The notes under the pieces were generated by a model, which had not been told where the DNA came from, did not search any database, and was given only the letters and a program-made list of their open reading frames with translations. Below, one piece after another: positions 1,069 through 61,090 of a stretch of DNA of 64,000 nucleotides. The stretch spans positions 10,022,378-10,086,377 of the forward strand of contig JALMQS010000030.1 in NCBI GenBank assembly GCA_024734495.1, read 5' to 3'. The stretch's first letter is position 1; each line of letters begins with the position of its first letter. The translations under genes and the position numbers were made by a program. The stretch comes from Forficula auricularia. Taxonomy: Eukaryota; Arthropoda; Insecta; Dermaptera; Forficulidae.

Positions 1069-4000
1069 ATGAATTATCGTATCGTTATTATATTCATATT
1101 ATTTCAATTAAATTCCCCAGCTTTTGGGGAAGGTATATTTGATCAAATTAAAGATGTAATTTTAACTTCCGAGCAGATTTTATCAGACACCTTTTCAAAA
1201 TTATTAACCCAAGCTCAAAATATGGAAAATATCAAAGATATTCTTAATGCTGCAATTGAAGAAAACTGTACCTTTAAATGTTCTAACGGTCAGTTTCTTA
1301 AAATTATTCATTTATACATAAATTTATTAAATAATCCATATTTCAGGCAATAAACCTATTCCGAATAAATATCACAAACCAAAAAGCAATGGATGTGGGG
1401 TTGCTCAGTTTAAGGTATCAATATATTAAGGATATCAATTATAATTAAAATACAAGTGTTTTCTTGGAGATGGGCTGGTAAATATTAATGGGTTTTCAAA
1501 GAATTGATGAAAAAATTTTGCTTGCTTGATTTGTTGATTCCTCAAGAGAAATTAATGAGGTTGTTCTCTGCTTGAAGCAAATAAACATATACATTTGTTA
1601 TTATCATTTCCGTCCATAATCTGTATTAATTTCAAAGTTTGTAATAGGAAAGTCGGGACAAGTTTTTATGTGGGACTTTTTTATTTATCAGCCAATGTTT
1701 CGTCGACTTTGCCGACTTCTTCAGGGCTTCAAGTGGTCATGTCACACATTCGTCTAAATTTTCTTGTTAACTTTGTTATCATTCAAGGGCGGATCCAGGA
1801 ATTTTTTATGGGGGGGGGAGAATGTATATAAGGTGCCCGATGTATATAAGATCTACTTTTTATCTCGAAAGTGGGTCAGAGACGCCGCCCCCCCCCCTAC
1901 TCACACACATAGAACTTTATTTTCAATTTTAAAATTTTTTTAAAAAAATAAATGTTTTTTTTACAAATTTCATATCTCATATTTTAGGTTCATTAAAATA
2001 AAAAAATTGTTATAAATTCCCTGTCGATTTGGCCGCCGTTTTTTGGCCTCTGCGTGCGATGCACGTGTTGCACTTCTGCCAGGCACGGGCCTCTATGGAG
2101 GGGCGGTCGCCCCCTCCGCCCCCCCCCCCTGGATCCGCCCTTTGTTATCATTGAAGACCATCAGAAACACAAATTTCAAAAATATTTGGCACATTCACAT
2201 AAACAATTTTTCTTTCTTTTCTTTTTATATTAACAATTACATTAGATATAAAACAGAAATAACATAAATAGAATGAGGTAACACAGTTTTTAAAAACAGA
2301 ATAGAATCTTTTTTCTTTTGATCCTTTTATAAAGAAATCTCAAATTAAAAAAAAAACAATAACGAAGATAACAAGAAAATTTAGACGAATGTGTGGCATG
2401 ACTATTTGAAGCCCTGAAGAAGTCTGCAAAGTCGATGAAACGTTGGCTGATAAATAAAAAAGTCACACATAAAAACTTGTCCATATTTTCCTATTATAAA
2501 CTTTCAAAACATATACATTTGTTGAGGGACCAACTTACTATAATAACAAAACGAATTTGACCACATCCATTCGGATATTCGACCCTCATTAACCCACATG
2601 GGGTAATTTAACTCCGTTCACCGTCCGACCCATGATTTATTGATAAAATGAACACTCATTTTATTCGGTAGACATCCAAGAATAATGTATTGCCGAAAAT
2701 CAGCAAGAGCAAAAGCCGCTGCTAAGGTAGTTCTTTCGTGACAATCCACACAAAAAGTTTTAGCCCGTAATCACTCTATATATATGAACGGTGCTAAAAT
2801 TTTAGGTTATGTTTTTTTAACGTGACTGTACTTCTCACACTACTATATCTTCTTTATGAATGACTCGTTTCCAAGCCATTGATCTTATATCCCCACCACT
2901 AAAAATAATCGCCCAATATGTTTTTGTTTTTTTTTATTTTTTATCAAAACTACGAGGTAAATAATTTCAATTTTTTTTAAGTTACTCCGAATATATGGAT
3001 TCTAACAAATATTAGTTTTTCATCAAGATGGTGAAAGTCCTTCAATGAAAAAAAATAAAATAATGACCATATCCCCACCCTTTCCCTATCTACCCTATGT
3101 AAAAAATGTCATTTTTAATTGCAATTATTTCATGTTTGGTGTGGTAAATCGTCTTCAAATTTTAACAGTATGTGTATTATGCTTTTAATGACTTATATTC
3201 AAAGTTTCAAAGACTTCTTGAATTTTTGCATTTGTGAAACAAGTACATTAAATGAGAATTAACAGCATTTTTCTCCATAAGAATATGTTTGTTTATTTAG
3301 TTGACTAGGGCTTCAAGCAGTGGTTAATAGGTGTTAGGGGAGGGGGGCGGATTTACATTGAACTATTTATTCTATCTCGAATAAATGTCACCAATAAGAG
3401 AATAAAAAAACTGAAACGAAGGTTGTAGATGTGCGTTGAGCTAACCACTTGACCCCTCGGTACTGTTTCCAATTAGGACAGCAACCAATTCAGTAGGCCA
3501 AGACCCATGAAGGGTTGTCGAGCCAGAGATTTATTTATTTTTTTAATAAGAGAATAAGATTTAAAAAAAGACGTCAATATTGTTTTTCCCTCAACCATTC
3601 AAACATTACATACGCTGTCTGAGATCATGGTTGTCCTGCATAAAGAAAAGACCAAGTACAATTAGTAAATCTTTCTTTAAATGGTATAAATGCCTTTCAT
3701 CATTCCGCTCAGAAAAACACATTAGTTCTTGAACACCATACACTGCCAAACAAATTGCGCAACACAGGCCGTTGTGCAATTGTATGACAGTATATGGGAG
3801 TGTTTGACAAGTTTCAAAAATGTTTGAAATCTTTTACACAACGAGAGCGGTTGTGCAACGCGTTGTGTTGTGTATGGGCGAGTTGTGCAATATTTTCAAG
3901 GTTTTGATTATGAATGATGCGTTGTTCAATTTCTCTTGCAATGTATGGGTCCCGGCAAACGATGCGCAACTCAACGTTGCACAACGCTTTGTTACTCAAT

Positions 4001-7000
4001 TTGTTTGACAGTGTATGGGCTCCTTAAGACCCTCCACTTTTTTTCTCTCTCTTTCACTATTCTTTTTAAATTTTATTTATTCTCTACTTTATTCTAGGAT
4101 ATCTACTCAATAAAATGAGTGGTCAATTTTTAAAATAGACCTAAAACACCCAGAGATATTCCAATCAATGTTGTCCCTATCCCATTTTGAGCTGAGTCGA
4201 ATATAATAGACCGCTATGCATACAAATTTTCGGAAACTTCACTGGGATGGTTTCCCGTTGCCTTTATATTTGACATTCCAAAAATTCATTCCCCCCCCCC
4301 CCAGTATTTTATCATGTTTGTATTAGTATTATGCCAAATCATTCAAGTTTTCTATATAAATTGAGTTATAAATAATAACTAAAGGATTGTATATCCATAT
4401 GACAAAATTTATTTTTATTGTTTAATTTACAAAATTGAACTCAGAATCTGAAGAATTATATATAAAAGTAAATTTAATAATAAAAATGCAGTACAATACT
4501 TAGGTAAGTTTTATTTTTGAGCTTCTTAATTTTTTTCTTTGGAAAATAATAATAAAACAAATACACTATAACATTAATATTTATTAATTAAAAGAGGAAT
4601 AGCAGGGAATTGGTCAATAAACAAAAAAACAGAGTTTTTATTAAATGGGCAAGACGTTTCGTGGATTTATTTCGACTTCCTCAGTGGCCCATTTTATCAC
4701 TGTCAAAAGACAATTCCACTATGCGACGAAACATCCTTAATCTTTTTTATTATAACTACAATACATTCTTGGCTTCATTTATTCAACAATCCTGAAACTT
4801 TTATCTCCTTTCAACAATTAATTGTCTGTTTAAAAATAAAAACAACACAAAAGATTTTTATAATAATTTTGATTTTTTAATTGTTGAAAGGAGAAAAAAG
4901 GTTCAGGATTGTTGAATAATTGAGGCCAAGAATTGTATTGTAGTTATAATCAAATAAGCTGACGTGTTCTGATGTGGCCATCCATTTGACTTTACCATAC
5001 AACCTGGCCCCTCACTTATATTTAATATTTAATAAAATTATTTATAATCATGCAGGGGGGGGTTAGTTTTTCAATTTTTAGACTCCTGGGGGCCCACTAA
5101 TTATGTATACAAAATTTGATTGAGTTTGGTACAAGGGCCTAGATTTTAATTTTTTGACCCCCCCCTCCTCCTTTTGGGCGGTTAGTTTTTGCATTTTTAG
5201 ACTTCTGGGGTCCCACTGATTATGTATACAAAATTTGGTTGAGTTTGCTCAAATTGCCTAGATTTTAATTTATAACCCCCCTCCACCCAGCGCCGTAACT
5301 AGGCAGGTGCACCCGCACGGGGCCCAGAGATCTAGGGGGCCCTAAAACGAAATTTGTTAATTGAATTTTCTTTACAAATTTGTTTTACAAAAATTTTATT
5401 CGAGATTTTAAAACACAAATTTTTATATGATATCTATTTGAACTATAATTACTTTTTCCCAAAAAATATAGGGGCCCTAAAAAATTTTTTGCACAGGGCC
5501 CTAAAAAAGCTAGTTACGGCGCTGCCTCCACCCCCTTAATTTTGGGTCGATATGCACCAAAATCTAATCAGCTCTTAATCTCAATGGACCAAAACTACGT
5601 GTAAAATTTGGTTTCAATATTCACACTAGTTTTTGAGCTAGCTCGTTCACAAAAATTTGGTAACGCACAGACAACCAGACTTTTTTATGATAATGATGAG
5701 AGAAGGAGTTACACCAAAAAGGTGCAGCCCCTAAAGGCCTGGGTTGGCCCCTCCATCGTGAAAAGAAGAAGAGAGAATTTTATGGGTTGGGCAGGGGTCG
5801 AAGGTATCTGTGGATAAGGGTCTTAAATAGCTGAAGGTTGTAAGTCGCGGGAAAGATGGTGGCAGGGAGCGAGTTCCAGTCTCTGGAGGTCATAGGGATA
5901 AAAGATTTGGCGAAAGCGCTTGTTCGACTTTTATCAAATTTGACAGCGAAGGGGTGCTGAGCGTTTGAAAACCGCGTGTTTCTCGTAAAGAGGGCGTTAG
6001 GGGGATAATTGATTTCAGCTCGACTGAACAGACACCGTGATAGTATCTGTAGTACAGGGAAAGGGCAGAAACGGTTCTTCGGTGAGCCAGGGAGTCGAGT
6101 GAGTTGGTTAGAGCCGGGTCTCCTATTAGTTTAATTGCTCGGTTCTCAATTGCATCCAGTGTAGCAAGAGAATGCTTGGAGGCACCTCTCCACAGATGAG
6201 AGCCATATTCGAGACAGGGACGAATTTGAGCCTTATACAGTACAAGAAGTTGACTGGGAGTATAACAGCGTCTAGACCTAAAGGAGACCAAGCTTGCGCG
6301 CTTCAGCTTTAGCAGTGGTTGAGATATGGTCATTCCATGAAAGGTCAGACCGTAGAGTTACGCCTAGCTGCCTAGCATTGAAATTTTATCCCTGAATTCT
6401 AGTGAGTTTAAGTCGAATGATATGTTTGGGAGGTTTCTGTCGACGCGCCTAGAAATAAGGCAACACTAATAGACATTTTGACAAAACAATTATTATCTCG
6501 AAAAAATATAAATTTTTCGATGTTCACTTATTAGAGCTTTTTTGTAGAGCGAAATGCGATGGTTTCGCTCAATTTTTTTAATAAAAATAGTTTCCGCCGT
6601 TTTTGAGATATTTCGAAAAAAAGAAGGAAAAAAACACTTTTTTCATGCACGATTACAATACTTGACCATACCCTGTATGGTAAAGTAAAAGATTAAAGAT
6701 GTTTCGTCGCATAGTGGAATTGTCTTTTGACAAAATAGGCCACTGAAGAAGTCGAATTAAATCGACGAAACGTGTGGCCCATTTAATAAAAACTGTTTTT
6801 TATTTATTGTCCAATTCCCTGCTATTCCTGTTTTAATTAATACTTATTATGGATGCGAGTGATATACCATTAATATTTATTATGCATATTAGAACACCAA
6901 TTTATTATTCTTTTTTTCTTGTCCGTGGGTTTAGAGCTTGCCTATTTGTTGCGCTCCTGAGTTGATACAGCTCTGAAAAAAATCACAATTTAATTTAATC

Positions 7001-7485: not shown

Positions 7486-7522
7486 ACATTATTTAAATTG
7501 ACTTATTTATTTATTTTTTCTT

Positions 7523-7818
7523 AAGGTCTGGCATGATGGTCTTCTTTTCAAATTAAAAAGAGACTTATCTCACCACCTCTACCTTATCATAAAATGTTAC
7601 TTAAAAGACAGACATTTTTACGTCAAATATGGGACGGAATTTTCTAAATTATTCCCTATTCACTCAGGAGTGCCCCAAGGAAGCGTGCTTGGGCCACTCC
7701 TATACCTTTTGTTTACAGTTGACTTACCAACAACAAACGATACTAGTACGGCGACTTTTGCAGACAATACGGCTATCCTTTTTTCTCAAAATCAACTTGT
7801 GATATATAATCAATTAAT
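7523..7818 (+). pseudogene. Jockey-type reverse transcriptase fragment with altered active site
   Basis: An open frame of about 98 codons reads ...SGVPQGSVLGPLLYLLFT..DLP.....TFADNTAIL, the fingers/palm blocks of a non-LTR reverse transcriptase. The catalytic FADD box is FADN (gac aat), so the second metal-binding Asp is lost. It starts without a Met just after the phospholipase poly(A) signal and is cut off by a fold-back element at 7819. A dead fragment. Confidence 0.85.
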
Positions 7819-8632
7819 TTTACGAACATGAATTTAGGTAATTTATCAAAGATTTTAATACAGTGGTACCTTGAGATACGAATGTCCTAACATACGAATG
7901 TTTTGAGATACAACATGAAATATTCTAAAATGTATACCTCGACATACAACGAAAAATTTGAGATACGAATTTGCGATTTGCCTTATTTGATGATTGGTGT
8001 CTCACATTCTTGCGTAACATTTTAAAAGAAGGCAGAAACAGACCTCTCTTGATCGTTACCTTATGAAGGTCTCACGCAGTGAAAGTCAGGAAAGTGAGGC
8101 CAAAATGGCCTGACGTTAAAGTGATGATTAATAAACATTGTGTGTTATTAATATATTAATAAACAAATTAATAAACATTATGTGTATTATTACTCGTTTA
8201 TCTATATACAAATTGTGTATATTATGTGTAATTTAACTGTGTTTTGGGTTAGTTTAATATCGCTAGAACGCATTAATATATATTACATTATTTTAAATGC
8301 GAAAAATTGCTTTAATGAGATACGATTTTTTTGACATACGACGATGATCACAGAACGAATTAAATTCGTATCTCAAGGTACCACTGTAGATATGCTTATA
8401 TTGCATGTAGAGAAGGTCCTGTCCCCTCGGGAGTCGGATCCAAGCACTAGTAAGCAACTTGGCTTTTGTTATATGTTGCATGTTTGGAGGGGATGGTGTC
8501 AAGGGTCTGACTAGTTCCCCGGAAAGCTTACTAGTTCTTGGGTTCGACTTCCGAGGGACAGGTACCTTTGTACATGCAATATAAACATATCTATTAAAAT
8601 CTTTGATAAATGACCTAAATTCATGTTCGTAA
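7819..8632. mobile_element. Fold-back element F with tRNA-like T-arm, hosting a Tigger-like MITE
   Basis: Outer inverted arms ttacgaacatgaatttaggt (7819 onward) and its complement (to 8632). Inner arms tagatatgcttatattgcat ... atgcaatataaacatatcta pair across 8387-8602. The centre contains gggttcgacttcc, a good RNA polymerase III B box, and the words ggaaagc and tagttc that recur in the fold-back at 50049-50225. Confidence 0.65.
7861..8386. mobile_element. Tigger/pogo-like non-autonomous element
   Basis: Terminal inverted repeat cagtggtaccttgagatacg / cgtatctcaaggtaccactg, 526 bp, flanked by TA on both sides (7859-7860 and 8387-8388). No transposase is encoded. It sits in the left arm of fold-back F, so it arrived later. 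Confidence 0.8.
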
Positions 8633-9684: not shown

Positions 9685-9720
9685 TGCAACGTTTCGCCAA
9701 TTTATTGTGGATTCATCAGA
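9685..9720 (-). ncRNA. Hammerhead-ribozyme-like core
   Basis: Minus strand: CTGATGA-A-TCC...GGC-GAAA-CGTT-gca. CTGATGA and GAAA are intact, stem II has one mismatch, and helix III is ACGT. Paired with the inverted copy at 12458-12492. Confidence 0.45.
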
Positions 9721-9877
9721 CTCTATACAAAAAATAAATACAAATGAATCATTCAGAATCATCAAAATCAACCTAGACATAATATAATATAAATACCTTG
9801 ATCACATTTTTAAAACACTCGTCATTTAATTATTTTCTTACTAATCAGAATACATATATATATATATATATATATAT

Positions 9878-12457: not shown

Positions 12458-12492
12458 TTGATGAAGCCACAATAAATTGGCGAAACGTTGCA
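12458..12492 (+). ncRNA. Hammerhead-like core, one core substitution
   Basis: TTGATGA-A-GCC...GGC-GAAA-CGTT-gca. The first core base is T instead of C; stem II (GCC/GGC) is intact. Right arm of the 9505-12667 inverted repeat. Confidence 0.35.
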
Positions 12493-14805: not shown

Positions 14806-17800
14806 ATGACTCCTGCATTAGCAATATTTTTGGTATTTTTCGGTTGTGGAAGTAATGTCATATTTCTGGAATTTCAAGTCAAGGAAGTAGAAATATAATA
14901 TACTACAACAAATATTATTTATTTTATTTTGATTATTTATGTCCATCGATTAAATTAATAAGTTGTTGTAGGAAATAAAGACAATAGCTTATGCAAGTAT
15001 TTTTTATTTTATGCCAACGTTTCGTCAACTTTGTTGACTTCCTCAGGGCTCAAATAAATTAATTTCTTGCATATTTGTCAATTTTTAAATATTTATTCTT
15101 AGCAAACACATATAGGCACAGATTGAAAATATTTTAAATCTTTTTAAATAGGAAATATTTTCAATCTGTGCCAATATGTGTTTGCTAAGAATGAATATTT
15201 ATAAAATGACAAATATGCAAAGAAATTAATTTGTTTGAGCCCTGAGGAAGTCAACAAATTTGTCGAAACGTTGGCATAAAATAAAAAATTCTTGCCTAAC
15301 CCAGGTAACCACAATATCCTAAGAATATTCTAAGGATATTCTAAGGACATTTAAATCTTCTTAGAATATTCTGAGGATATTGTGTGTTACCTGGGAAGCT
15401 ATTGTCCTTATTTCCCTACAACAACTTATTAATTATATATTTTTTTATTATTATTTTAAAAATTGTTTTCAAGGAAGATCCTGGAGTTGGAAATCTGATC
15501 ACTTTCTCTCAATTCGTATTTATCGCAATTCATGGCTTTATATTTACATCCAATTTTGGCCGAAATAAATTAAAAATAGGTTTAAAGTAAGATTTTTAAA
15601 ATTTATTACGCTTTTCTTATATTCACTCTATTAATATATATATTTTTTCTATTTTAGGCATTATCTTTTTTTAGTTGTGATGTTTTTTGTTACTAATCTT
15701 TGTAATAATTGGGCTTTTGACTTCAATATTCCAATGCCTCTACATATAATATTTCGAGCTGTATGTATTTCATTTAAAAGTCAATTGATAGCTTTTTAAT
15801 AAGAGGCTGCGAATTATTGAAGTTTTGCAGGAGGGGAGAAACTCAAAGACCAAAGCTTTACTTAAAAATTTAAAGGGTAGTGCCTGGAACACCTAGCGAT
15901 GCTCGGTAACTTTTTGCCTCTAAATGGCTTAAGTTTCAAATTTCAAGGCTCTGCGACTTACCAAAGAAGATATATGAATGATTAAAATATTTATTTTACG
16001 ACACTCCTAATTTACACCCCCTTCCATTCTTTCAATCGGATTAAAATCTATACACGACTAATTGAGGCGACTGTGGGTCAGTGGCTAGAGTGTCGGGCTA
16101 TACGGGGAAATACGCTGGTTTGAGACCGAGTCTCAGCAGATATTTGCAGTCGCCTCCTCTTGGAAAGCACTGGCAACCTACCAAGAGTATAATTGCCTAG
16201 TCAACCTCTCCAAACTAGCCGTTCGGAACCGGCGTTAAAAAGTAGATCCCGTCTATCTGTGTAAAAACAGCTAAACACACTCAGCACAGGTATATGTGGA
16301 GAGGAGCCGAAACGTCAGGGAGACTTGATATGGCACTTAAAGAAGAAGAGACACGACTAATAACTCATGAGACTTGATATGTACACCAATTTTTAGCGAA
16401 ATCGTTAGAACCGTTTTCGAGAAACCGATTTTATATCTTATCTTATCTTATTATAATAAACGAGCAATTCTTGTATATATATATATATATATATGTAATC
16501 GGTTTCTCGAAAACGGCTCTAACGATTTCTCTAAAAATTGGTTAACTTATCAAGTCTAATGAGTTATTAGTCGTGTATAAATTTTAATCCGATTGAAATA
16601 AAGGAAGGGGTGTAAATTATTCATTTCGTAAAATAAATATTTTAGTCGTTCATATCTCGTCTTCGGTAAGTCGCAGATCCTTGAAATTTGAAACTTGAGC
16701 CGTTTAGAGACAAAAAGTTGCCGAGCATTGCTCGGTGCTCCAGGCATATATATATATATATATATACAAGAATTGCTTGTTTAATATAATAAGATAAGAT
16801 AAATAAGCATGATTATCCCCCCTATGGATATGTTTTTGCTTTGACCAGAAGGGGAAAAGATTTTTCAGTAGTTATAGAATATACAGCTTGTCACCTAATG
16901 AAATGACTTAATAGAGTCACCCATCAAGAACGAGTGCTCTGCTAACGGTCACTTTATGATGTGCCAATATGATGAATTAGAAGACAACCTGTCTATTCTA
17001 ATCCTGTACGGGGAGGGGGGGGGGCTGTCCACCCCCACCCTCTGTAATTCGCACACTTGTGAGCAGGATAATTTGGAGTACAGATTTTTACGGAAGTTTC
17101 TCTTGGTAGCATTTTCTGATGATAGTTTCCTTATTATAGTGATAGGGAAGATTTTTTCAGATATTAGTGAGCTCGGGGGAAACTTTTTTAAGCTATTATC
17201 CCATAATATATTTGGCTACGCCAATATTGATTCTAAAGAGAGAAAATGGAAGATACTTTAATTTCAAAATAGTTTATTTAAATCAATTTATTCCTAGAAT
17301 ACAATCATAAGTTGAAAAGTTTTTATTTTGCCTAGAGTAGCAGAGAAACAAAGAGGTTGTCTGTCCTCTGCTTGATGCAAATAAACATACACACATATAA
17401 TATATATATATGTATATATATTATTTATTTGTTTGAGAATATAGTTTCGAAGGCTTGGCCCTCATTATCAGTCTTTTTAATTATAAATATTATTTTCATG
17501 GGATCAGTTATCAGTTTGGATATTGATCCCATGAAAAATAATATTTATAATTAAAAAGACTGATGATGAGGACCAAGCTTTCGAAACTATATTCTCAAAC
17601 AAATAAATAATATATATACATTAGGGTGGGCCTTATTTTGGGTATTTTCGAATTTTTACGCTCGCAGAGGCTCATATGGTTCGAAATAAATAAAAAAAAT
17701 ATCTTCCAAGTTTCAAGTCTCTATCTCAATGTTAACCTGTGCCTCAGAGCGATGTAAGTTTCCCATCTAAATAACATGGGGTTTTTGGCATTGAACGATC

Positions 17801-23800: not shown

Positions 23801-26064
23801 TTTTAGAGTATCAATTCGTTATATATTATAATAGTAATGAAGCTGTTGAAGCTTTTATTTTTGTGATTAATTTGATTAAAATTTGAATTTTTATTTAAAT
23901 CACACATAATTAATTATAATTATTTATTGAAACAAATAATACAATATAACTACAACGTTTCGATCGACTTATTCTGCGATCGTTCTCAAGTATGAGCACC
24001 TACTCCGATTATAGGTTGAACCTATAATCTGAGTTAGCACATCGTCAGGAGTCAAAAAACTGAATATAAATTAGAAAAATGTTTACAAATAATAATTTTT
24101 TGGAGTCAGGTATTGTGAGGAAAAATGAGGGGACGGGAAAATGTACTGAGAATTCATATTTCTAGAAAGATGGAAAAAGTGAGATTTTTTTGACAGGTGG
24201 TGGGAAATATATATGTATACCTGGGTTTATAGAAGAACAGAATGGTACATGGAAAATGCTGTTATCTTAATATTAAAATGAAATGTCGCTAACAACCCGA
24301 AATATATCGAAATCTAAACTCACTTTTGTTTTATTTTAATTTTATGTGAAACCCACCTAGCAATTTTACCTAATTTTAATTATTAAAAAATGTTTCACCT
24401 TGAACCAACACCTATCTCCTTAAAAGTTATCAATTCTAATCCTTGACAACACTATCAAACAACAACCGTAAAATTTTTATCACATTTACAACGATCGCAG
24501 AATAAGTCGATCGAAACATTGTAGCTGTATTGTATTATTTGTTTAAATAAATAATTACTGCCTGGAGCACCGAGCAATGCTCGGTATCTTTTTGCCTCTA
24601 AATAGCTTAAGTTTCAAATTTCAAGGCTCTGCGACTTACCGAAGACGATATATGAATGATTAAAATATTTAATTTACGACACTCCTAATTTACACCCCCT
24701 TCCTTTATTTCAATCGGATTAAAATCTATACACGGCTAATAACTCATGAGACTTGATAAGTATACCAATTAAAAAAAAAATCGTTAGTTCCGTTTTTGAG
24801 AAAATAAAAAAAAAAAACGAAAAATCTGTCATGTAAATGTCAACTTACGGTTCTCCAATTTCAATGACTGATTTATTTCGCCACGCAGAGGGGGGCAGCC
24901 CTTTACAGAAAGAATACAGATTTGTTTATAAATTAGGTTAAAACCCTCATCAGCCGTCCAAAAATTACGCCAGATGTAATATGGCTATTTGTGAAAAATA
25001 CATGTAGGACTCCAGAACTGTAGGCCAGAGTGCTGGGAGCGCCAAAAGCGCCCCACAACTGCAATGCGAGAAAGAAAAAAAAAACATAAATAAAAATTAA
25101 CATCAAAATGCTAAAAAAAAAATAATAATAATAATAATAAAACGTTTAAAATAGGCTGGCCACCGCAGAAAGGTCATTTGTCGATGAAGGCCAGCCCAGC
25201 AATGCACATAAATCTAAACTCACTATTTAATTAATTAAGGCCGGGCCCCGTCCGGAAAGTCCGCCTCATGAAACTAGAAAAGTTAAAAAGGGAACCTAGC
25301 ATCGCCCTGAGTGTCATTTTGTTCAATGTAGTTTTACGGACACCCAGGGCGCGCAGGTCCCTGAAGGACCGGGGACACCACACCCCCTTCCACGATATTG
25401 TCGCCGCCAAAACGGTGACAGCACCGGCGGCGACTCCGAACCTCTCCGCGATATTCCCGACTAGACTGGAGTTGCCACTATAACAATTAATTTTGTTCTT
25501 GTTGGCAACTTCCAGTCCGGCGACCGCTGAGACCACCTGGACATCAATGACCGTCACCCGATCTTCCGGCCCTGCCGTTAGGGGGTTTTGGGGTTGACAA
25601 TTCGATCTGTCACGGTCTCATCTTCGACAAAATTGTTTTTGATGGGTTTTTTTTCGTAATCAAATTAATTATTCTCAAGTAGACAAATGGCAATCTTATC
25701 TTAGGGATTTAAAAAGGGTTCCTCTTTTCTTTTGTACCCTGGCAGACAATGGGCTGGTTTAAATCTTTGTTCTCAAAGGCCTTGAAGAACTTTGTGATTG
25801 TGGTGTGTTGTCCCTAAACGTTAGAATTATTATATTGTTTTTATAAAGAACCTTATTTATTTAATAGAATAAAAATAATCAAGAATTTATTTAAAAATAT
25901 CTTTTGCATAACCAGGTCTCAATTTTCTAAAAAAATAACACATTTTGATAGGTTTTATTTATTAACAATTGGATGAATAAAAATGAATCATTCGGTTGAA
26001 TCAAAACAAAATAATTGGCTGTTCAAACAAGCAATAACTAAACCCGAACGAAGCTCGGTCTTCC

Positions 26065-26102
<38 letters not shown>

Positions 26103-29100
26103 TTTTTTTTTTTTTTATTTTAAAAACGGCTCTAACGATTTTGATGAAACAAACTCTATTAACAAGTTTTGAGGATGAGAAAGCGATCTTGATGCGGAGC
26201 GGGGGTGGATGTGGTGGATGTGGGGGTGCAGAAGTTGAGGGATCCGGGGGTAGGGCGAGGTTTCGGGGGTGGAGGCTACAGTGGTCGAATACATTATATC
26301 TGTTTGTATTTTTTTTAATTTGAAAAGGGTTCTCAAATAAAAATTTACATTTTTATCAGAATTTAAAATTAAAAATAATATTAAAATAAAACTTTTAACT
26401 GAAGGAAGAAGTTACCGAGCATCGCTCGGTGCCTCCAGGTACTAGATGTTAAGAGGCCAGGGGGAACCTATTGAGGTTGCGCGGATGGAATTGCGCAGCA
26501 CCAAAGGCGATGGAGTGAGAGCCAACGCCAAGAAAATATTAAGGCCCCGAAAAACACTTCCTAAGACCGAAGACCCATTAAAACAAAACATACCACCCCA
26601 TAGAAAAAGCTTGCTGTACCCCTTCTTGCCTATATCGAGGTTAAGTTTCAAATTTCAAGGCTCTGAGACTTACCGAAGAGGAGATTAAAATATTTATTTT
26701 ACGACATGACTAATTTACACCCCCTTCCTTTATTTCAATCGGATTAAAAATTTGACACAGCTAATAACTCATGAGACTTGATAAGTACACTAATTTTTAG
26801 CGAAATCGTTAAAGCCGTTGTTCGAGAAACCGATTCTATATTTATATATAGAATCGGTTTCTCGAAATATATATATATATATATATATACAAGAATTGCT
26901 CCTTTAATAAGATAACATAAGATAATTAATTATGTGTGATTTAAATAAAAATTCAAATTTTAATTCGTTCTATTTTATCCTATATGATTATATTTTATTA
27001 TTGTGATTTCGACTTCTAACATGTTGAAACCCTTGCTAGCCTTTCATAAATTACCTTTATAATACTATCTTAGACAAGTATTTTTCCCGTTATTTTATAA
27101 GATGGAAAGAGCGATATCTAGCTTTCACTTAGTAATTTTTTCTTTTTTTTCTTGTGTAAAACGGACTGAGCTATCTCGACCCACTTCACCTTCTCTAGTT
27201 ATTCTGTTTTGAGGTAAATGAGTCCATGAATGAATACAGAATTTAAAAATTTAGGCTCCCATCGCTACAAGGAAGGAATGTGGCGAGAGAGAACCTAAGA
27301 AGATTTGAATAAAAACATTCCTAAATCCTGTTTAAAATGAGTGAAACAGTTAACTCCTGTTCTCTAATTCTCAAATCTAGCTTTTTTTATATACTTTTCT
27401 TCCATATCTAACACTTCTTCACAGGAAAGCCTGAAATATTTTTTCCCATCATACAAATACATTTCAGGGAAGAGAAAATGGAGAACATGTAATCTGAGAT
27501 GTTATATATTCAATCCCCCAGTCCAGCGCGCTCAATCTGTTAACACTTGTGTTAGGTGTTTGCTATTAATTAATCATAAGTTTCCAATATTTGATTCAAT
27601 CGCGAATCGAATGCAGGTGATTTTTGTCAGATATTAAGTGAAAATAATATCCGAATTTATATATTTCTGTATTGAAATAATGAACATCTCAGATTACAAA
27701 TCCATTTGGTAATCCATATCAGTGTTTGGTATAAAGGCGTCATGCGGACTAATCGCGAAATGATGCTGGATCATAGCTAAATGGATCACATCTTTTTAAT
27801 TCTCTCTTGGTCCAGACTTAAGATTTCAGCATACTCCAATAGCCTCAACCAGCAGTAGTCTCGCGATATATATATCTTGTTTAAAAGCCCTATCAAAAAC
27901 AATTCTCTATAATGTGCTAATTATTCTTTAATATATTAATTAGAAAATTATTTAAATTCATTATTTCAACACAGAAATATATAAATTCGGATATTATTTT
28001 CACTTAATATCTGACAAAAATCACCTCCATTCGATTCGCGATTGAATCAAATATCGGAAACTTATAATCGAAATATATGAGTTTTTTTAAACTTTGTTTA
28101 TTCTTTACAGTGAAACACCACAAAAATCCTTCAACTTTTTTTCCTTTATTTAAGTAGAGACTGTTAAGAGTTGCAATAACACACTTTTTTTTTTAAACAG
28201 ATAAAAATTTAACCACAATCTACACTAGCAAGTAAAATATTTTACGGTTGTTGTTTGATAGTGTTGTCAAGATTAGAATTGATAACTTTTAAGAAGATAG
28301 GTGTTGGTTCAAGGTGAAACATTTTTTAATGATAAAAATTAGGTAAAATTGCTGGTTGGGTTTCACATAAAATGAAATAAAACAAAAGTAAGTTTAGATT
28401 TCGATATATTTCGGGTTGTTAGCCCATCGTCAGGAGTCAGAAAACGGAATATAAATTAGAAAAAAGTTTACAAATAAACTTGATCTTTTGGAATCTACGG
28501 AAATTATATTAGCCCTTTCGAATAATTTCAATATTTTAAATAATCAACTAGAAGTCAATAAAAATACAATCATTGATTATATCTTATAATAAATAACTAA
28601 ACATTCCTTCTATTGTTCCGACATTTCATTTTAATATTAACGTAGATGTTTCGCAAAAATACTAGCAAAAAGTTAATGCTAGAGTATATAGAACAGACAA
28701 TAAGAATTCATAATTCATAAGCCCAAAACTTTTTATTATTATAATAGCAGATATAGCTTCCTTTCAGCCAGTTCAAATCTCAATAGAAAATATTAATTCT
28801 TAGAACAACTTCTCCTCTTCCCCCTACTTTCCCCTCACCACATACATTTAAAATAAATTTAAAAATTGTTACTTGTAAAACAATTTTTCCAATATATAAT
28901 CAGTTTTCTTAGACTCCTGATGATGGGCTAACCCCCGAAATATATCGAATTCAAAACTCAATTTTGTTTTATTTCTTTTTTGTGAAACCTACCTCGTATC
29001 TTACTCAAGTTTTATTATTATATTAAAATGTTTCACCTAGAACCAACACCGAACTCCTTAAAAGTTACCAAAACTTTTTGCTGTTTATGTACCACTAGTA

Positions 29101-30847
29101 GCCAATCCCGTGCTCGTTTGGCAAATCTGACAACACTGTCCGAGCTTGTATATATTTTATCATAGAAATTTCAGATAAAGTACATTATAAAGGGAGATTT
29201 ATAAAACAAAAAGTTCTTAATAAGCGATTAAAAGCTGTTGCGATAATGGCTGAAGCAAAAAACGTCAAAAAAATTACTAAAGTTAACCCACTTTTTAGGT
29301 TAAATACATGCGTTGTTGCCAGCTTGTTTTTAGTGTAAATTTTTCATTATACATTTTTCATTATTTATTCATTATTATCTCAGAAACTGTGTTGTAATCA
29401 TGAATTAAAATTTTCTTAAAAATTGTATTAGTTACTGTTTAATGTTTGTTTAGTTTTTTATAACAATGGTAAGAAGAGTTTTTAATTATAATTAAATGTG
29501 TATCTAAACTTTCCGATATTCTATATAGTGCAATGTATAAGAGTCTGAAAAACTCTATCTTTGGAATTTAATATCTCCGGAACTATATTGTTCATATATT
29601 TCGTTTTGCCACCAATCGATGCAGAAGTATTTAAATAATAATCTATCTAAATTTCAAAAAAATCCTAAGAAAACCCATATGGTCAAATAACTACCTTAAC
29701 ATAACATTTTCCATATACCATTGTGTTCTTTTATAAACCCAGGTACCTATATATATTTCCCACCAACTGTCAAAAAAACCTCACTTGTTCCATCTTTCTA
29801 GAAATATTAATTCTCAGTACAACTTCCTCCTCCCCTCATTTTCCCTCACCATACCTGTCTCCAAAAAATTATTATTTGTAAACATTTTTCTAATTTATAT
29901 TCAGTTTTCTGACTCCTGACGATGGGTTAACAACCCGAAATATATCGAAATCTAAACTCACTTTTGCTTTATTTAATTTTTATGTGAAACCCACCTTGCA
30001 ATTTTACCTAATTTTTATTATTAGAATTTCTAACCAGTTTGAAATACCTACCTGAAATTTCAAACGATACAACATATATTAAGTGGGAGATAAATTTAAC
30101 CTAATTTATCGCACGGAGAATTTACCACTGCTCGAAGCCCTTAAAATACTTAGTAAATTGTATTGTATTGAACTTTCTGAGATTTGGCTTGTGATCCCGG
30201 CTTCTTTCCTTCTACTCTGTTATTTTCACAATGGAGGGGCCATCCCATACAGGCCTTTAGGTATGCACCTTCTGGTGTATCTCCTTCTCACATCAATATC
30301 ATTAAAAAAAATAAACAGAAAAGGTCCATGGCCCTGTTGCCCTTGGTCCCTTACCATTAATTTTATTATTATTTTCACATTTTAAATTACTCCAATATCT
30401 TGTGTTGCAGCATTTGATCTCCTTACCAGGATTCCTTATGTTTCATAACAATATATATGAACATTTTGTATTTACATTCAATAGTCCAGCGTTATTTTTA
30501 GGAATACCAAAATTGTTCATATATTTAATGGGCAACGTTTTAACTCAGTAAGTATTTGAATTTATTTCAATCCAATTTTTTAACTTCATTAATCTTTTTC
30601 TATTTTTTCTAGATTCATATGTATAAGTTCCGTTTATGTATTATCAAGTGAATGTTCTTCATTAACAGTAACACTTGTTGTAACATTAAGAAAATTTTTT
30701 AGTTTAATTGTATCTATAATTTATTTTCAAAATAATTTTACAATTTTACATTGGATTGGAACATTTCTAGTATTTGCTGGGACTGTAATATTTACAGAAG
30801 TAGTTCCTAGGATTCGACAATCGATGGAGAAAAAAAAATCTGATTAA
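14806..30847 (+). CDS. SLC35B4: SLC35B4-type nucleotide-sugar transporter, eight exons
   Basis: Exons are 14806-14886, 15474-15586, 15658-15760, 21205-21336 (by homology), 22468-22534, 22602-22711, 30411-30547 and 30613-30847, giving about 325 aa, close to the family length. Recognisable blocks are the N-terminus MTPALAIFLVFFGCGSNVIF, PGVGNLITFSQF, FNIPMPLHIIFRA-GSLIAN, SARMGIYQEELYSKFGKHPQ, LISLPGF, LTVTLVVTLRKFFSLI and TEVVPR. The protein should be a ten-helix Golgi/ER antiporter carrying UDP-xylose and UDP-GlcNAc, as in the SLC35B4 family; the substrate is inferred from the family. Introns 2 and 4-7 are clean GT-AG. Intron 1 (donor gtagaa, acceptor tcaag) costs one extra Glu. Intron 3 has a good donor (gtatgt at 15761), but the homology-defined exon 4 start follows gagct, not AG; using the nearby AG at 21201-21202 adds 2 nt and breaks the frame. 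The 3' end is lysine-rich (EKKKSD). The gene may be intact with an unusual splice, or disrupted. Confidence 0.88.
15013..15050 (-). ncRNA. Hammerhead-ribozyme-like core, family A, intact stems
   Basis: Minus strand: agcc-CTGAGGA-A-GTCAA-caaag-TTGAC-GAAA-CGTT-ggc. Stem II is five perfect pairs, helix I is gcc/ggc, and helix III is self-complementary ACGT with T at the cleavage position. Because the gene is on the plus strand, this arm is antisense in the SLC35B4 pre-mRNA. Confidence 0.5.
15238..15275 (+). ncRNA. Hammerhead-ribozyme-like core, sense in SLC35B4 intron 1
   Basis: agcc-CTGAGGA-A-GTCaacaaatttgtC-GAAA-CGTT-ggc. The core words are intact; stem II is weaker than in the opposite arm (changes in gac/ttg). 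Transcribed in the sense direction with the host gene. Confidence 0.45.
15300..15395. mobile_element. Small MITE with cccaggtaac termini
   Basis: cccaggtaaccacaatatcc at the left and its near-complement at the right enclose short repeats of aatattctaagga. 96 bp, inserted in the right arm of the intron 1 fold-back. Confidence 0.6.
15885..16745. mobile_element. Inverted pair of Helitron/HINE-like elements around a (TA)n core
   Basis: The minus-strand end gcctggaacacctagcgatg...ctcggtaac at 15885 and the plus-strand end gttgccgagcattgctcggt at 16720 face outward. Between them lie inverted copies of a body containing ttcaaggctctgcgacttac, ttcaatcggattaaaat and gttttcgagaaaccgat, meeting at a (TA)n run near 16470. 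A SINE sits in the left half. Confidence 0.6.
16063..16350 (+). mobile_element. tRNA-derived SINE with 11-bp target duplication
   Basis: The head tgggtcagtggctagagtgt resembles an A box and ctggtttgagacc a B box of a tRNA promoter, followed by an unrelated body ending ggcacttaaagaagaagag. The duplication acacgactaat flanks it exactly at 16052-16062 and 16351-16361. Confidence 0.8.
17558..17596 (+). ncRNA. Hammerhead-like core, family C
   Basis: ga-CTGATGA-T-GAgGaCcaaGcttTC-GAAA-CTATATTC. Derived relative to the clean family C copy at 60581-60624. The opposite arm (17435-17473, minus) has CTGATAA, a core change. Confidence 0.4.
17624..18004. mobile_element. GGGTGG-family MITE, intact
   Basis: gggtgggccttattttgggt at the left and complementary sequence ending ggccaccc at the right, TA on both sides, 381 bp, nearly palindromic. 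Best reference copy for the family at 9878-10863 and 52198-52834; a terminal scrap lies near 43790. Confidence 0.8.
18021..18304. mobile_element. MITE with ggtgtttcaggaggaatagt termini
   Basis: ggtgtttcaggaggaatagt at the left and its complement ending cctgaaacaccc at the right; inner arms attgcaataaaaaatgccat match on both sides. TA-rich flanks. Non-coding, about 284 bp. Confidence 0.75.
18370..19282. other. AT-rich intronic DNA, no recognisable feature
   Basis: Part of SLC35B4 intron 3. Contains T-runs and no open frame or repeat that I could match elsewhere in the window. Confidence 0.6.
19283..19827 (+). mobile_element. piggyBac-like MITE, TTAA-flanked
   Basis: Starts ggtagttctttcacaaatgc, ends gtcgtgatagaatatcc, with TTAA at 19279-19282 and 19828-19831. 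545 bp. Sister of 21807-22337 (same strand) and 2726-3250 (inverted). Confidence 0.8.
19843..20972. mobile_element. Long near-perfect palindromic MITE, 1.13 kb
   Basis: Begins gggtgattcatttctgcaaa and ends with its complement ending tcaccc, with TA on both sides. The two halves are inverted copies along almost their whole length, meeting near 20400. Lies in SLC35B4 intron 3. Confidence 0.85.
21807..22337 (+). mobile_element. piggyBac-like MITE, TTAA-flanked
   Basis: Starts ggtagttctttcacaaatgc, ends gtcgcgaaagaacctcc, with TTAA at 21803-21806 and 22338-22341. 531 bp, in SLC35B4 intron 4. Confidence 0.85.
22890..23516 (-). pseudogene. LINE polyprotein C-terminal fragment in SLC35B4 intron 6
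   Basis: A long minus-strand open frame (216 codons, 23516 to 22866) contains the KWTIVRCGSVWRGTK region and a C-x...E..DH....C arrangement (WCGEDKETFDHAKIC), as in the region after the reverse transcriptase in non-LTR elements. The 3' part is lysine/glutamate-rich and runs into C/T-rich DNA. No palm domain is present. The frame is unusually intact for a fragment. Confidence 0.55.
23849..24560. mobile_element. Fold-back element E with hammerhead-like core, interrupted by element B
   Basis: The left arm (taattaattataattattta, acaacgtttcgatcgactta) and the right arm (gatcgcagaataagtcgatc, 24490-24550) are inverted. Core at 23951-23991 (minus): TTGAGAA-CGATCG-loop-CGATC-GAAA-CGTT, with two substitutions in CTGANGA. 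A family B copy interrupts it at about 24025-24440. A second E copy lies at 51120-51385. Confidence 0.6.
24555..24780 (-). mobile_element. Helitron/HINE-like element, partial
   Basis: Minus-strand terminus gcctggagcaccgagcaatg...ctcggtatc, followed by the shared body (ttcaaggctctgcgacttac, ttcaatcggattaaaat). Confidence 0.6.
25231..25600 (-). pseudogene. R2/R4-like LINE 3' end (restriction-like endonuclease region)
   Basis: Minus-strand frame: VTVIDVQVVS, LEVANKNKINCYSGN, TISWKGVWCPRSFRDLRALG and LGSLFNFSSFMRRTFR. The VxVxDxQV...K..KY order fits the C-terminal endonuclease of early-branching non-LTR elements, where the PD..D-type motif lies just upstream. The upstream half is missing. Higher GC than the surroundings. 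gtctcatcttcgac just beyond it is repeated inverted near 59355. Confidence 0.6.
26040..26445 (+). mobile_element. Helitron/HINE-like end with G-rich segment
   Basis: A (TA)n run follows gctcggtcttccaggta (26053-26070). A strongly G-rich stretch (26194-26275, many GGGGG runs) lies between it and a perfect hairpin end at 26411-26431 followed by gcctccaggta and CTAG. The same G-rich-then-hairpin order is seen at 39690-39880. Confidence 0.6.
26640..26950 (+). mobile_element. HINE body and (TA)n junction
   Basis: Shared body (ttcaaggctctgagacttac, ttcaatcggattaaaa, tcgagaaaccgattctatat), then a (TA)n run and acaagaattgctcctttaat, the presumed 5' terminal sequence also found at 16765 and 59466. Confidence 0.5.
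27567..28068. repeat. Fold-back repeat, about 115-bp arms
   Basis: ataagtttccaatatttgat...tatatttctgtattgaaata (27567-27685) is repeated in inverse at 27956-28068. The loop carries no core motif and no open frame. SLC35B4 intron 6. Confidence 0.75.
28200..28445 (-). mobile_element. Family B hammerhead-like element
   Basis: Contains ggtgttggttcaaggtgaaa and gtttcacataaaatgaaata, then a core at 28401-28439 (minus): CTGACGA-T-GGG...CCC-GAAA-TATATC. Stem II is GGG(c)/(a)CCC and helix III is the self-complementary ATATAT followed by C. Confidence 0.5.
28735..29067 (+). mobile_element. Solo 333-bp family B element with clean 12-bp target duplication
   Basis: ccaaaacttttt at 28723-28734 and 29068-29079 brackets exactly 333 bp. 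It contains one hammerhead-like core and the tgtgaaacctacct / aatgtttcacctagaaccaa segments. There is no inverted partner and no open frame. Its insertion within a known MITE makes the boundaries firm. Confidence 0.75.
28912..28950 (+). ncRNA. Hammerhead-ribozyme-like core, family B
   Basis: gactc-CTGATGA-T-GGG-ctaac-CCCC-GAAA-TATATC-ga. CTGATGA and GAAA are intact, stem II is GGG/CCC, helix III is ATATAT, and C is at the cleavage position. The base after CTGATGA is an unpaired T. Confidence 0.5.
29700..30050 (+). mobile_element. Family B element
   Basis: Matches the reverse complement of about 24040-24240 (tttataaacccaggtac..., ccatctttctagaaata) and carries the core at 29911-29950: CTGACGA-T-GGGttaacaaCCC-GAAA-TATATC. 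Confidence 0.65.
29911..29950 (+). ncRNA. Hammerhead-ribozyme-like core, family B
   Basis: gactc-CTGACGA-T-GGG-ttaacaa-CCC-GAAA-TATATC-ga. All core words conform to CTGANGA/GAAA. Transcribed in the sense direction in SLC35B4 intron 6. Confidence 0.5.
30107..30325 (+). pseudogene. Degraded LINE 3' end
   Basis: aggcctttaggtatgcacct...ctggtgtatctccttctc matches the 3' UTR of the LINEs at 5680-5760 and 56755-56800, followed by an A-rich tail. No coding sense remains. Confidence 0.55.
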
Positions 30848-33944: not shown

Positions 33945-34100
33945 AGACTGTCTCAAGAAAAAAACTCGCCCGGTATATTTCGGGTGGCTAACCAATCTTC
34001 AGGAGCAAACTTAGCTCTCTCAAATAAAACGAATATACTAAATAATCAATTAGAAGTTAAGAAAAGTACAATCATTGATTACATTCTTTAAATATTTGCA
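33945..34100 (-). mobile_element. Family B element, partial, with hammerhead-like core at 33970-34006
   Basis: Minus strand: gctc-CTGAAGA-TTGG...CC-GAAA-TATACC. The core words are intact and stem II is short. Confidence 0.45.
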
Positions 34101-51119: not shown

Positions 51120-51385
51120 AATTAAAATTTGAATTTTTATTTAAATCACACATTAATTATAATTATTTATTGAACATGAACAATATAACTACGACGTTTC
51201 GATCGACTTATTCTCGTCAGTTCACTATAATCGGAGTGGGTGCTCATACTTGAGAACGAATGCAGAATAAGTAGTTTTATTGTATTATTTGTTTCAATAA
51301 TTCATTATGTGTAATTTAAATAAAAATTCAAATTTTAATCCAATTAATCACAAAAATAAAAGCTTCAACAGCTTCATTACTAATA
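51120..51385. mobile_element. Fold-back element E, second copy
   Basis: attaaaatttgaatttttat...tacgacgtttcgatcgactt and its inverted right arm; same family as 23849-24560 without the family B insertion. The CTGANGA side of the core is rearranged. Confidence 0.65.
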
Positions 51386-51618
51386 AATCTGTTTCAATTT
51401 TGGTTTGGTGATAATGTTTATTTATTTATTTCATACAATAAACGGACAGAAAAGTATTTAAGCAAAATGTGTGATTGATGGCTTGTTGAGGCTTTGGTGG
51501 TCAAGTCATGGATTGGAGAACTCCTTCGGATTGGACCATCGATTAATGATCAATTAAATAATTATAAGTAGGTTATAATGAAAGGCTGTCCATAAATTAT
51601 TTAAATTTTGTTCAAATT

Positions 51619-51658
51619 CCGACGTTTCGGAGACTTTTTTCTCTCCTTCTTCAGGGTA
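51619..51658 (-). ncRNA. Hammerhead-ribozyme-like core
   Basis: Minus strand: tacc-CTGAAGA-A-GGAGA-gaaaaaag-TCTCC-GAAA-CGTC-gg. Five-pair stem II, helix III ACGT, C at the cleavage position, minimal helix I (cc/gg). Confidence 0.5.
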
Positions 51659-51866
51659 TTGAATAGTTATTGATGGATGAGTATAACTCGATTCCCATTT
51701 GTCTCTCATTTCAGTGATAGCAACACTATTACAATATTTTCCAACATTATATCATAAGTGTACTTAGTAATCTCAGTTAACTATGTACACTCATGATATA
51801 ATGTTGAAACTGAAAGGAGAGACAAATGGGAACCGAGTTATGCTCATCCATCAATAACTATTCAAT

Positions 51867-51906
51867 ACCCTGAAGAAGGAGAGAAAAAAGTCTCCGAAAC
51901 GTCGGA
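51867..51906 (+). ncRNA. Hammerhead-ribozyme-like core
   Basis: tacc-CTGAAGA-A-GGAGA-gaaaaaag-TCTCC-GAAA-CGTC-gg, identical to the opposite arm in all core and stem positions. Confidence 0.5.
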
Positions 51907-52140
51907 ATTTGAATAAAATTTAAATAATTTATGGACTGCCTTTCATTATAACCTACTTATTTCGCTTACCAGCCCGTCTTTCTAAGAAAATAAATAAAAT
52001 TAAATAAATAATTATAATTTGTTAAATTGTTCACAACGTTTCACCTTATTGATCAGAAGCCGTTTTCAAATGATAATAATATATGTATTACGAGTCACGT
52101 TGGATTGTTGAAATGGATTTGGATGAAATAACCTTCATAA

Positions 52141-58044: not shown

Positions 58045-58213
58045 CACAAGGAGAAACAAAGAGGTTGTCCTCTGCTTGATGCAAATAAACATACACACAT
58101 ATATATCGAGATGATATGTGTGTATGTTTATTTGCATCAAGCTGAGGACAACCTCTTTGTTTCTCTTTGTGAATCAACAACTCTGCTACTCTCGGCAAAA
58201 CAAAAACTTTTCA
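58045..58213. mobile_element. 169-bp fold-back insertion with 12-bp target duplication
   Basis: cttaattctagt at 58033-58044 and 58214-58225 brackets an inverted pair of aacaaagaggttgtcctctg...gcaaataaacatacacacat, then ctctgctactctcggcaaaa. It belongs to the family forming the outer arms at 17.3-18.4 and 52.1-53.0 kb, and gives that family's boundaries. Confidence 0.8.
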
Positions 58214-58904: not shown

Positions 58905-59130
58905 CCAAAATAAAATAAAATTGAAATAAAACTTCATTTATATTTTTACCAACGTTTTGACCCGCTATGGCCATCATCAAGATGTATCACTAGACACAAA
59001 ATTTTGAATGTAATTGCAATTAAAAATAATACTAAAATTCACCGAGGTTCTTTCATTGACCCTTTTAAATCCTGAAGAAGGAGGTACGATCCTTCGAATT
59101 GTCGGATTTTTTAAGAGAATGAAATTGATA
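58905..59130. mobile_element. Inverted hammerhead-like cores, family A/D mixture
   Basis: 58949-58984 (minus): TTGATGA-T-GGCC...GGGTC-AAAACGTTGG. 59070-59106 (plus): CTGAAGA-A-GGA...TCC-TTCGAATTGTCGG, with CTGAAGA intact but GAAA changed to GAAT. Both look decayed. Confidence 0.4.
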
Positions 59131-59999: not shown

Positions 60000-60260
60000 C
60001 CTAGTGACGATTAGAAATAGCTAGGCTTATAGTTTTTTTGTTTGTTTTTTTTGTTAAGGGAGAATGGTGTAGGTTCTTGGTGAAACATATTAAACAAAGT
60101 AAAGAAAAATTTTGGAACTTTTTTTAAAGAATTTTTTTAATATAAAATAGTAGGTAGGTTTCACATAAATAAAAGATCAAATGCTTGTTTAGCACGATTC
60201 AATATATATTTCGGGGTGTAAGCCCATCTTCAGGAGTTCACAAAGGACACTCAATTTTCT
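60000..60260 (-). mobile_element. Family B element with hammerhead-like core at 60198-60239
   Basis: Contains ggtgtaggttcttggtgaaa and gtaggtttcacataaataaa, shared with 28.2 and 24.4 kb. Minus-strand core: gaactc-CTGAAGA-T-GGG-cttaca-CCCC-GAAA-TATATAT-tg. Confidence 0.6.
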
Positions 60261-60580: not shown

Positions 60581-60624
60581 TAGAGACTATAGTTTCGAAG
60601 GCATTGCCTTCATCATCAGTCTAT
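60581..60624 (-). ncRNA. Hammerhead-ribozyme-like core, family C, best structure in the window
   Basis: Minus strand: TAGA-CTGATGA-T-GAAGGC-aat-GCCTTC-GAAA-CTATAGTC-TCTA. Helix I pairs TAGA with TCTA; stem II has six perfect pairs with a 3-base loop; helix III ACT/AGT closes on two bases or pairs between two copies (ACTATAGT is self-complementary); the cleavage triplet is GTC. The only deviation from the classical core is one extra T after CTGATGA. I infer a type I arrangement. Confidence 0.6.
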
Positions 60625-60829
60625 CACAAATATTTCAAATTAGTTACAAATTAAGATTTATACATTGAAAATTTTGAAAAATATATAATGTCTTTTTCTT
60701 CATGTTTCCTCTTGGGAGATTAGAATATAACGTTTTATATAAGTTTTAATATTTGTAATTGAAAGTAATGGAATGCAGCCCCGGGGTAGCGAGGAAAGAA
60801 AAAATTAACACATATCCAAATAAGGTGTA

Positions 60830-61090
60830 ATTTATTGGATTCTATCCTCCTTTCATTTCAAACCGAAGTTTCGGAGTATTCTTCCCTACTTCTTCAAGGT
60901 TTCAAGGGGTCAATGAAGGAAACAAATAAAATGCTTCCTTCCTCTCTCCATAGCAGTGTTTAAAACTTTTTTCCTCTTCCTTTGCAGAAGCATAGAAAAA
61001 CAATTTTTTTTCCCTCTTTTTCCTTCCATTACTTTCATTTAAAAATTTCTACCAGTCCGTCTCTCTCCAGAGAAAATTTCGTGGAAATAA
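60830..61090. mobile_element. Element with variant hammerhead-like core (60862-60898, minus)
   Basis: Minus strand: TTGAAGA-A-GTAGGGaagaataCTCC-GAAA-CTTC-ggtt. One core substitution. Also contains aatttctaccagtccgtctc, shared with fold-back A4's flank (accagcccgtctttct at 51969). Confidence 0.4.

Follow-up and report, generated by a model that had tools for sequence, protein, structure and literature searches.

Hammerhead-like motifs in probable Penelope-like insertions of the earwig Forficula auricularia

Small hammerhead variants of Penelope-like elements (PLEs) were reportedly described by Cervera and de la Pena in 2014 and by Lunse, Weinberg and Breaker in 2017. PMC7761336 and PMC6155905 place minimal type I cores, with nearly no stem III, in the pseudo-long terminal repeats (pLTRs) of PLEs, at thousands of copies per metazoan genome; according to the first of the two, a review, it is unknown what the hammerhead does in PLEs. 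In the Penelope element of Adineta vaga (PMC3846280), pLTRs are found head to head in inverted orientation, with target-site duplications and an optional 31-bp tail on one of them, and the pLTR includes the start of the open reading frame (ORF). Poseidon PAc of Anolis, presented in a 2024 paper (PMC11167929) as the first active PLE to be examined in vitro, has a hammerhead near its ORF start; an internal start of reverse transcription on the RNA yields the tail, the protein cuts and extends both DNA strands with a preference for AT-rich targets, and in vitro ribozyme cleavage is dispensable for insertion. We describe here a 64-kb stretch of DNA (the window) from contig JALMQS010000030.1 of Forficula auricularia, along which motifs resembling the hammerhead core are scattered, together with copies of these motifs in a 264-kb sample around the window on the same contig and in the 1.06-Gb genome.

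The presence of scattered ribozyme-like motifs, as described in the initial annotation of the window, was confirmed. As to their source, its mention of Penelope-like elements stood, while the idea of a dispersed population of retrozyme or satellite type was not supported, as the cores are not arranged in tandem arrays and form part of PLE-like insertions. The motifs are very probably small type I hammerhead variants within the pLTRs of Penelope-like retrotransposons, 5'-truncated copies of which are mostly joined head to head. The cores are thus most likely not free-standing ribozymes or retrozymes, and lie near the outer ends of PLE insertions, which corrects the view of such motifs as free-standing ribozymes.

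Minimal hammerheads in the pLTRs of PLEs, inverted pLTRs and tails are already published. Like the published variants, those of the earwig have a minimal type I core in pLTRs; in the strict set of sites, A9 and stem II are always separated by one extra base. Compared with Adineta vaga Penelope there are far more copies, small elements made of almost nothing but two pLTRs, and several families side by side. A strict rule of one short and one tailed arm, and the 5'-end cluster reported below, were not met in the literature searched; PMC3846280 does describe an inverted pair of pLTRs of which one is tailed. The many well-preserved insertions from several families offer evidence, at the level of single bases, on the points at which reverse transcription begins, on how the two strands are used and on whether cleaved RNA serves as template.

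Architecture and number of the cores

The word CTGANGA was found 39 times in the window for 17.1 expected, and CTGANGA-N(6-26)-GAAA gave 20 rows, i.e. 18 distinct places, for 3.1 ± 1.9 expected. The 16 cores that the initial annotation had credited with both core words do have them and are all among these 18 places; its total of about 28 cores was not reached, the 18 places being joined by five copies that are degenerate or partial (12458+, 17465-, 24042-, 24290+ and 59072+), and its five families were roughly right, seven or eight being distinguished by eye. At least three consecutive pairs beside GAAA were formed in 12 of the 16, with 4678-, 9713-, 15242+ and 33996- falling short. The two places beyond the 16 are 51214-, a hammerhead-like site lacking the extra base, and 23486-, a probable chance match in which no stem is formed.

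The core words are short and the DNA is AT-rich, which is all that speaks for chance as the origin of the whole set. Permitting one mismatch in the core did bring in many chance sites. With the full descriptor (exact core, stem II of at least three consecutive pairs beside GAA, stem III palindrome), 10 sites were found in the window against 0.05 expected from 40 first-order Markov simulations, and the exact 24-mer core of the family E site 28917+ was present in 1,294 copies in the genome against none for the reversed 24-mer used as control. Chance is, in practice, no explanation.

The stem I pairing, between the bases 5' of CTGANGA and those 3' of H17, had not been used in the initial annotation, and it falls exactly at the hammerhead register. 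Over 19 window sites, seven families and eight positions, Watson-Crick plus GU pairing averaged 5.28 against 3.49 when families were permuted, and none of the 5,040 permutations reached the observed value, the identity permutation also remaining below it since the unpermuted matrix includes within-family pairings across copies. With Watson-Crick pairs only, two of the 5,040 permutations reached the observed score. Register 0 was the best, the next one scoring 3.66.

Stem II was examined on 53 sites of the 264-kb sample and of the family E loci L001-L008, picked on the core words and the palindrome with stem II ignored; L001-L008 were selected by one exact motif and are not independent of it. 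At least three pairs were formed with exactly one extra base in 44 of the 53, and in none with 0, 2 or 3. Covariation of the stem over 32 distinct inserts was not matched in any of 10,000 permutations. The extra base after CTGANGA, put forward earlier as a caveat, is therefore real: a strict scan of the 264 kb that permitted 0 or 1 extra base found one in 34 of 34 sites, 51214- being the exception outside that set. The canonical type I hammerhead lacks an insertion at this place. H17 was not G in 18 of the 19 window sites; the remaining one, 6743+, has G and is on that account expected to be inactive. Stem III is a short palindrome without a loop rather than a true hairpin and, as in the PLE variants, a dimer would be required. 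Stems I and II both covary, and the initial annotation was right in proposing a hammerhead-type architecture with selection on RNA structure.

Head-to-head arms and target-site duplications

A feature that had gone unnoticed is that the cores are paired in inverted orientation and face outward. Six such pairs are present in the window (1718-/2414+, 4678-/6743+, 9713-/12458+, 15040-/15242+, 17465-/17560+ and 51648-/51870+), together with a composite cluster of three of the listed cores (28427-/28917+/29916+). Such outward-facing arrangements account for 13 of the 16 listed cores, the remaining three (33996-, 60227- and 60613-) being single. The pair 28427-/28917+ was considered as a single insertion and rejected: its arms are 81% identical, 28427- is nearer to 29916+ (90%), and no duplication was found.

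The same orientation prevails elsewhere. Among 100 listed exact copies of the family E 24-mer, neighbours within 3 kb were on opposite strands in 10 cases, all head to head, and on the same strand in one, with none tail to tail; neighbours in the 264 kb were head to head in 10 cases, same-strand in four and tail to tail in one. These figures bear on the proposal that the motifs are retrozymes, or a hammerhead satellite spreading via small circular RNA. Many animal type I hammerheads do belong to retrozymes according to PMC7229834, and non-LTR retrozymes likewise carry a type I hammerhead in non-coding repeats; the same text describes metazoan retrozymes as small tandem repeats, whereas here neighbours within 700 nt are mostly head to head (13, against four same-strand and two tail to tail). 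No direct tandem array of the core was seen, Tandem Repeats Finder giving no array that overlaps a core-plus-GAAA site, and a transcript through a head-to-head pair would hold one core and the complement of the other, from which no cis-dimer could form. We consider a retrozyme or satellite origin very unlikely.

For family E, 52 loci were read from the first 100 listed of the 1,294 exact copies (eight from the search return, four chosen as listed pairs and 40 listed singles). A head-to-head partner was present in the stretch read for 34 of them; at one locus there was a further copy upstream on the same strand, and at another a copy downstream that faces inward. In 28 of the 34 pairs the insertion is flanked by a direct repeat scoring at least 11, versus 2.3% of 1,122 controls. 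In 15 elements of mixed families, a direct repeat abutting the arm end scored at least 12 in nine cases, versus 0.5% of 210 swapped controls. The latter figures were obtained with a stricter rule for arm ends, adopted in place of a looser one that overran the ends in several elements (4/15 scoring at least 12; control share at 11 or more, 2.4%). Locus L002 has no duplication by the stricter rule and a 13-bp repeat both in the wide-window search and in the family E survey. The direct repeats range from 11 to 25 bp.

The two ends of a pair are not equivalent. All 29 family E pairs that could be classified at both ends had one short and one tailed arm (five pairs could not be classified), while in Adineta vaga Penelope the tail is optional. 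The short end lies at about +101 to +119 from C3; the tailed arm continues past +140, its tail extending about 45 nt beyond the short end and reaching the ORF start. In three of four listed family E pairs the tail ends at CTCCTTAAA(A/T)GTTA, and in the fourth a few bases off. The inner breakpoints differ widely. As the joint varies from one insertion to the next, each pair was most likely made anew and not amplified as a fixed unit.

These properties were also set against the possibility that the inverted pairs are DNA transposons resembling miniature inverted-repeat transposable elements (MITEs), with the hairpin serving as a DNA binding site for a transposase or a host protein and no ribozyme involved. 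Some elements, such as E15 and E51, are indeed short and bounded by terminal inverted repeats, and the window is rich in other inverted repeats (282 pairs). A MITE-like origin is nevertheless hardly credible: the flanking repeats vary in length instead of being fixed, the ends are unequal in every classifiable pair and the inner breakpoints widely varied, the hammerhead register alone gives the best stem I pairing, and pieces of PLE coding sequence are found upstream of one motif of this type (see below).

Possible transcript ends, tails and coding partners

The arms are best accommodated by insertion of a PLE, with the hammerhead core near the 3' end of each 5'-truncated copy. Two copies would be joined head to head with both ribozymes outward, often between target-site duplications of 11-25 bp. 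AT-rich DNA would be cut in a staggered manner by the protein of the element, each of the two 3' ends would then prime reverse transcription from one of two fixed points inside the element RNA, and the two cDNAs would be joined at their 5' ends. Acting as a dimer or aided by a protein, the ribozyme would probably trim read-through or multimeric transcripts. The anatomy of the insertions fits what is published for PAc. The ribozyme of PAc overlaps the start codon (PMC11167929), whereas an ATG is found here about 100-113 nt after C3 in E1, E4, E15, the element at region 260159 and family E.

Another route to the head-to-head form within PLE insertions is self-priming, or fold-back, on an antisense template, as proposed by Arkhipova and co-workers in 2013 (PMC3846280). 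There, palindromes occur at the inverted junctions of Adineta vaga Penelope; in the earwig, L032 and L037 have overlapping arms (22 and 40 nt) that share their start base, like those of L008. Simple fold-back of one strand, however, does not yield differing arm starts, and of 13 compact pairs, whose arms overlap or are separated by no more than 40 nt, nine have starts more than 15 nt apart (e.g. -13/+69 and -235/+46); moreover, both strands of the target are extended in vitro by purified PLE protein (PMC11167929). The data do not separate fold-back from two primings, the differing starts favouring the latter; fold-back remains the less probable of the two but has an appreciable chance of being correct.

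In family E, 12 of 68 arm starts fell at -12 to -15 relative to C3; half of the arms (the 34 anchor arms) had been picked for an intact core, which biases the sample toward starts before it. The arms of this 5'-end cluster, 12-15 nt before the core, come from L001-L008 and L029-L072, and full-length copies read TCAGTTTTC at that place. The arthropod initiator resembles this sequence. The 5' ends at TCAGTTTTC may thus be run-off ends at a transcription start, which would put the ribozyme at the extreme 5' end of the transcript. In the same 68 arms, with the same choice of anchor arms, not one start lay at the end of the predicted cleavage product; most of the insertions read here therefore came from RNA uncleaved at this ribozyme, in agreement with the dispensability of cleavage in vitro (PMC11167929). 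In one element of another locus (L024:6627-6826), which has a 14-bp duplication and one short and one tailed arm, both arms begin just after the predicted cleavage site. These are the ends that a cleaved template would give, with the caveat that a GAATTC palindrome is present at that start.

Taken together, these data lead us to suggest, tentatively and with the odds rather against the combination, that insertion is obligately asymmetric and uses two starts, about 45 nt apart on the two strands of the staggered cut, of a transcript that begins about 15 nt before the core, at TCAGTT, and has the ribozyme as its first 45 nt or so. If so, self-cleavage would remove the cap and leader and could in this way switch the RNA between the roles of message and template.

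The tails encode recurrent peptides from the ATG: MDGNDN (E1), MDAS (E4), MD (E15), MDTNNE (region 260159) and MDFN (L005), and, in the ATATAT lineage, MFHLEPTP, MFHYKPTP, MFHQVPTP and MFLLKPTP. No ATG is present in the tail of E51 or in that of its relative at region 255585.

Coding partners were found at two places near the window on the same contig, both decayed copies. At L017, a 288-aa piece matches RVT_1 (E-value 9.7e-8) and is followed by a GIY-YIG piece (E-value 0.0028) in a different frame; motif 250444+ (numbering of the 264-kb region) lies about 1 kb downstream of these pieces. At L021, a GIY-YIG piece (E-value 0.0062) lies 410 nt upstream of motif 78330- on the same strand. In PLE-2, the copy at L021, a pair of direct pLTRs (441 bp, 98%) is accompanied by an inverted pLTR (225 bp, 99.6%), a layout found also in Adineta vaga Penelope (PMC3846280). 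Direct plus inverted pLTRs, a duplication and a tail were all seen, but never together in one element, PLE-2 being without a clear duplication. A database homologue (P0001) showed 95% identity over 84% of the query and contains YVDD and a GIY-YIG segment in one 498-aa reading; among 120 listed of 833 relatives, all matches with organism names were insects.

Several observations weigh against the assignment to PLE hammerheads. The Rfam hammerhead models, the check proposed in the initial annotation, gave no match at permissive E-values on the whole window and two single sites, and minimum-energy folds of four motif-bearing stretches showed no hammerhead in monomers, the CUGA word itself being base-paired in that of 51855-51925; both results could be compatible with a variant lacking stem III that needs a dimer or a protein, and are no proof of activity. 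In the window, no PLE coding sequence was recognised by domain search or with PLE-like motif patterns in six frames. Outside it, the ORF at L017 is broken, with its reverse transcriptase and GIY-YIG pieces in different frames and an interrupted pLTR between them and the motif, and both GIY-YIG matches are below the Pfam cut-off. L017 and L021 carry only the ATATAT-type ribozyme, so that the PLE link of the ACGT-type families rests on anatomy. In the stretch read, 18 of the 52 family E loci had no partner. A duplication was looked for and not found in E9, E17, the 28427/28917 pair and PLE-2, the last of which has tails on both outer arms. Finally, the repeats of 11-14 bp from the wide-window search were not above its control (mean 9, maximum 28), and single repeats from that search prove nothing alone.

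Other features of the window

The coordinates of the elements and cores are collected in Table 1.

Table 1. Elements, cores and target-site duplications (TSDs) of the window
Feature	Position	Strand	Remarks
E1 left TSD	1583..1599		AAACATATACATTTGTT; 17/17 identical to 2507-2523 (best of up to 300 random window pairs, 11)
E1 left-arm tail	1600..1629	-	contains ATGGACGGAAATGATAAT (M D G N D N)
E1 left pLTR arm	1630..1779	-	91% to 2359-2508 inverted
E1 left hammerhead core (C3 to H17)	1694..1724	-	outward
E1 right pLTR arm	2359..2508	+	tail absent
E1 right hammerhead core	2414..2444	+	outward
E1 right TSD	2507..2523		pairs with 1583-1599
E4 left TSD	4567..4586		19/20 identical to 6863-6882
E4 left hammerhead core	4653..4684	-	stem I paired at 8/9 positions
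E4 right hammerhead core	6743..6774	+	H17 is G
E4 tail	6843..6862	+	ATGGATGCGAGTGA (M D A S, running into the duplication)
E4 right TSD	6863..6882		pairs with 4567-4586
E9 element	9507-12667		contains both E9 cores
E9 left hammerhead core	9688..9719	-	outward
E9 right core	12458..12489	+	decayed (TTGATGA)
E15 candidate TSD	14914..14938 with 15432-15456		21/25 identical, low complexity
E15 left hammerhead core	15016..15046	-	outward
E15 right hammerhead core	15242..15272	+	arm with later palindromic insertion, about 100 nt
E17 left core	17437..17471	-	decayed (CTGATAA)
E17 right core	17560..17594	+	outward
Family E copy, 5' part inverted	24033..24441		joint with repeated GCTAAC; break lies within hammerhead loop II
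Family E hammerhead core	28403..28433	-	arm tail contains ATGTTTCACCTTGAACCAACACC
Family E core	28917..28946	+	source of the exact 24-mer (1,294 genome copies)
Family E core	29916..29946	+	arm without tail
Single core	33972..34002	-	stem I paired at 9/9 positions, GU counted
Core without extra base	51193..51220	-	weak 2-bp stem II
E51 left TSD	51549..51567		17/19 identical to 51999-52017
E51 left hammerhead core	51621..51654	-	arm 51564-51715
E51 right hammerhead core	51870..51903	+	arm 51809-51960; tail 51961-51998, no ATG
E51 right TSD	51999..52017		pairs with 51549-51567
Decayed core	59072..59105	+	CTGAAGA, 5-bp stem II, GAAT
Single family E core	60203..60233	-	no partner
Single core, ACTATAGT family	60585..60619	-	no partner

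Twin priming is a form of insertion known from long interspersed nuclear elements (LINEs), and the inverted family E copy at 24033-24441, with its 6-nt repeated joint inside ribozyme loop II, looks like that form. A repeat related to the 51214- site adjoins position 24033.

An open frame with a SAP domain (11169-11507; E-value 1.5e-7) stands between the inverted arms of E9 and could be captured sequence. Fragments of a non-LTR retrotransposon are present at 7502-7828, with RVT_1, and at 5893-6357, between the arms of E4, the latter named by eye and without a Pfam match. The palindromic insertion in the right arm of E15 (15299-15396, about 100 nt) probably represents a MITE family, as its end sequence also precedes an arm in L004. 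Mariner-like transposase fragments occupy 13165-13494 and 13859-14170, with an HTH_48 domain of the Mos1 type in the first, the second being recognised by eye.

In a tandem array of 119/238-bp units (38225-39139), CTGAAGA is found in several units with no GAAA at the right distance. A host gene is represented by an exon of the BTG/Tob family (45624-46139; E-value 3.3e-39). Long near-perfect hairpins, probably transposon-derived, lie at 15099-15188, 17692-17935, 20158-20667 and 58058-58162; three of them score as miRNA precursors below the Rfam cut-offs.

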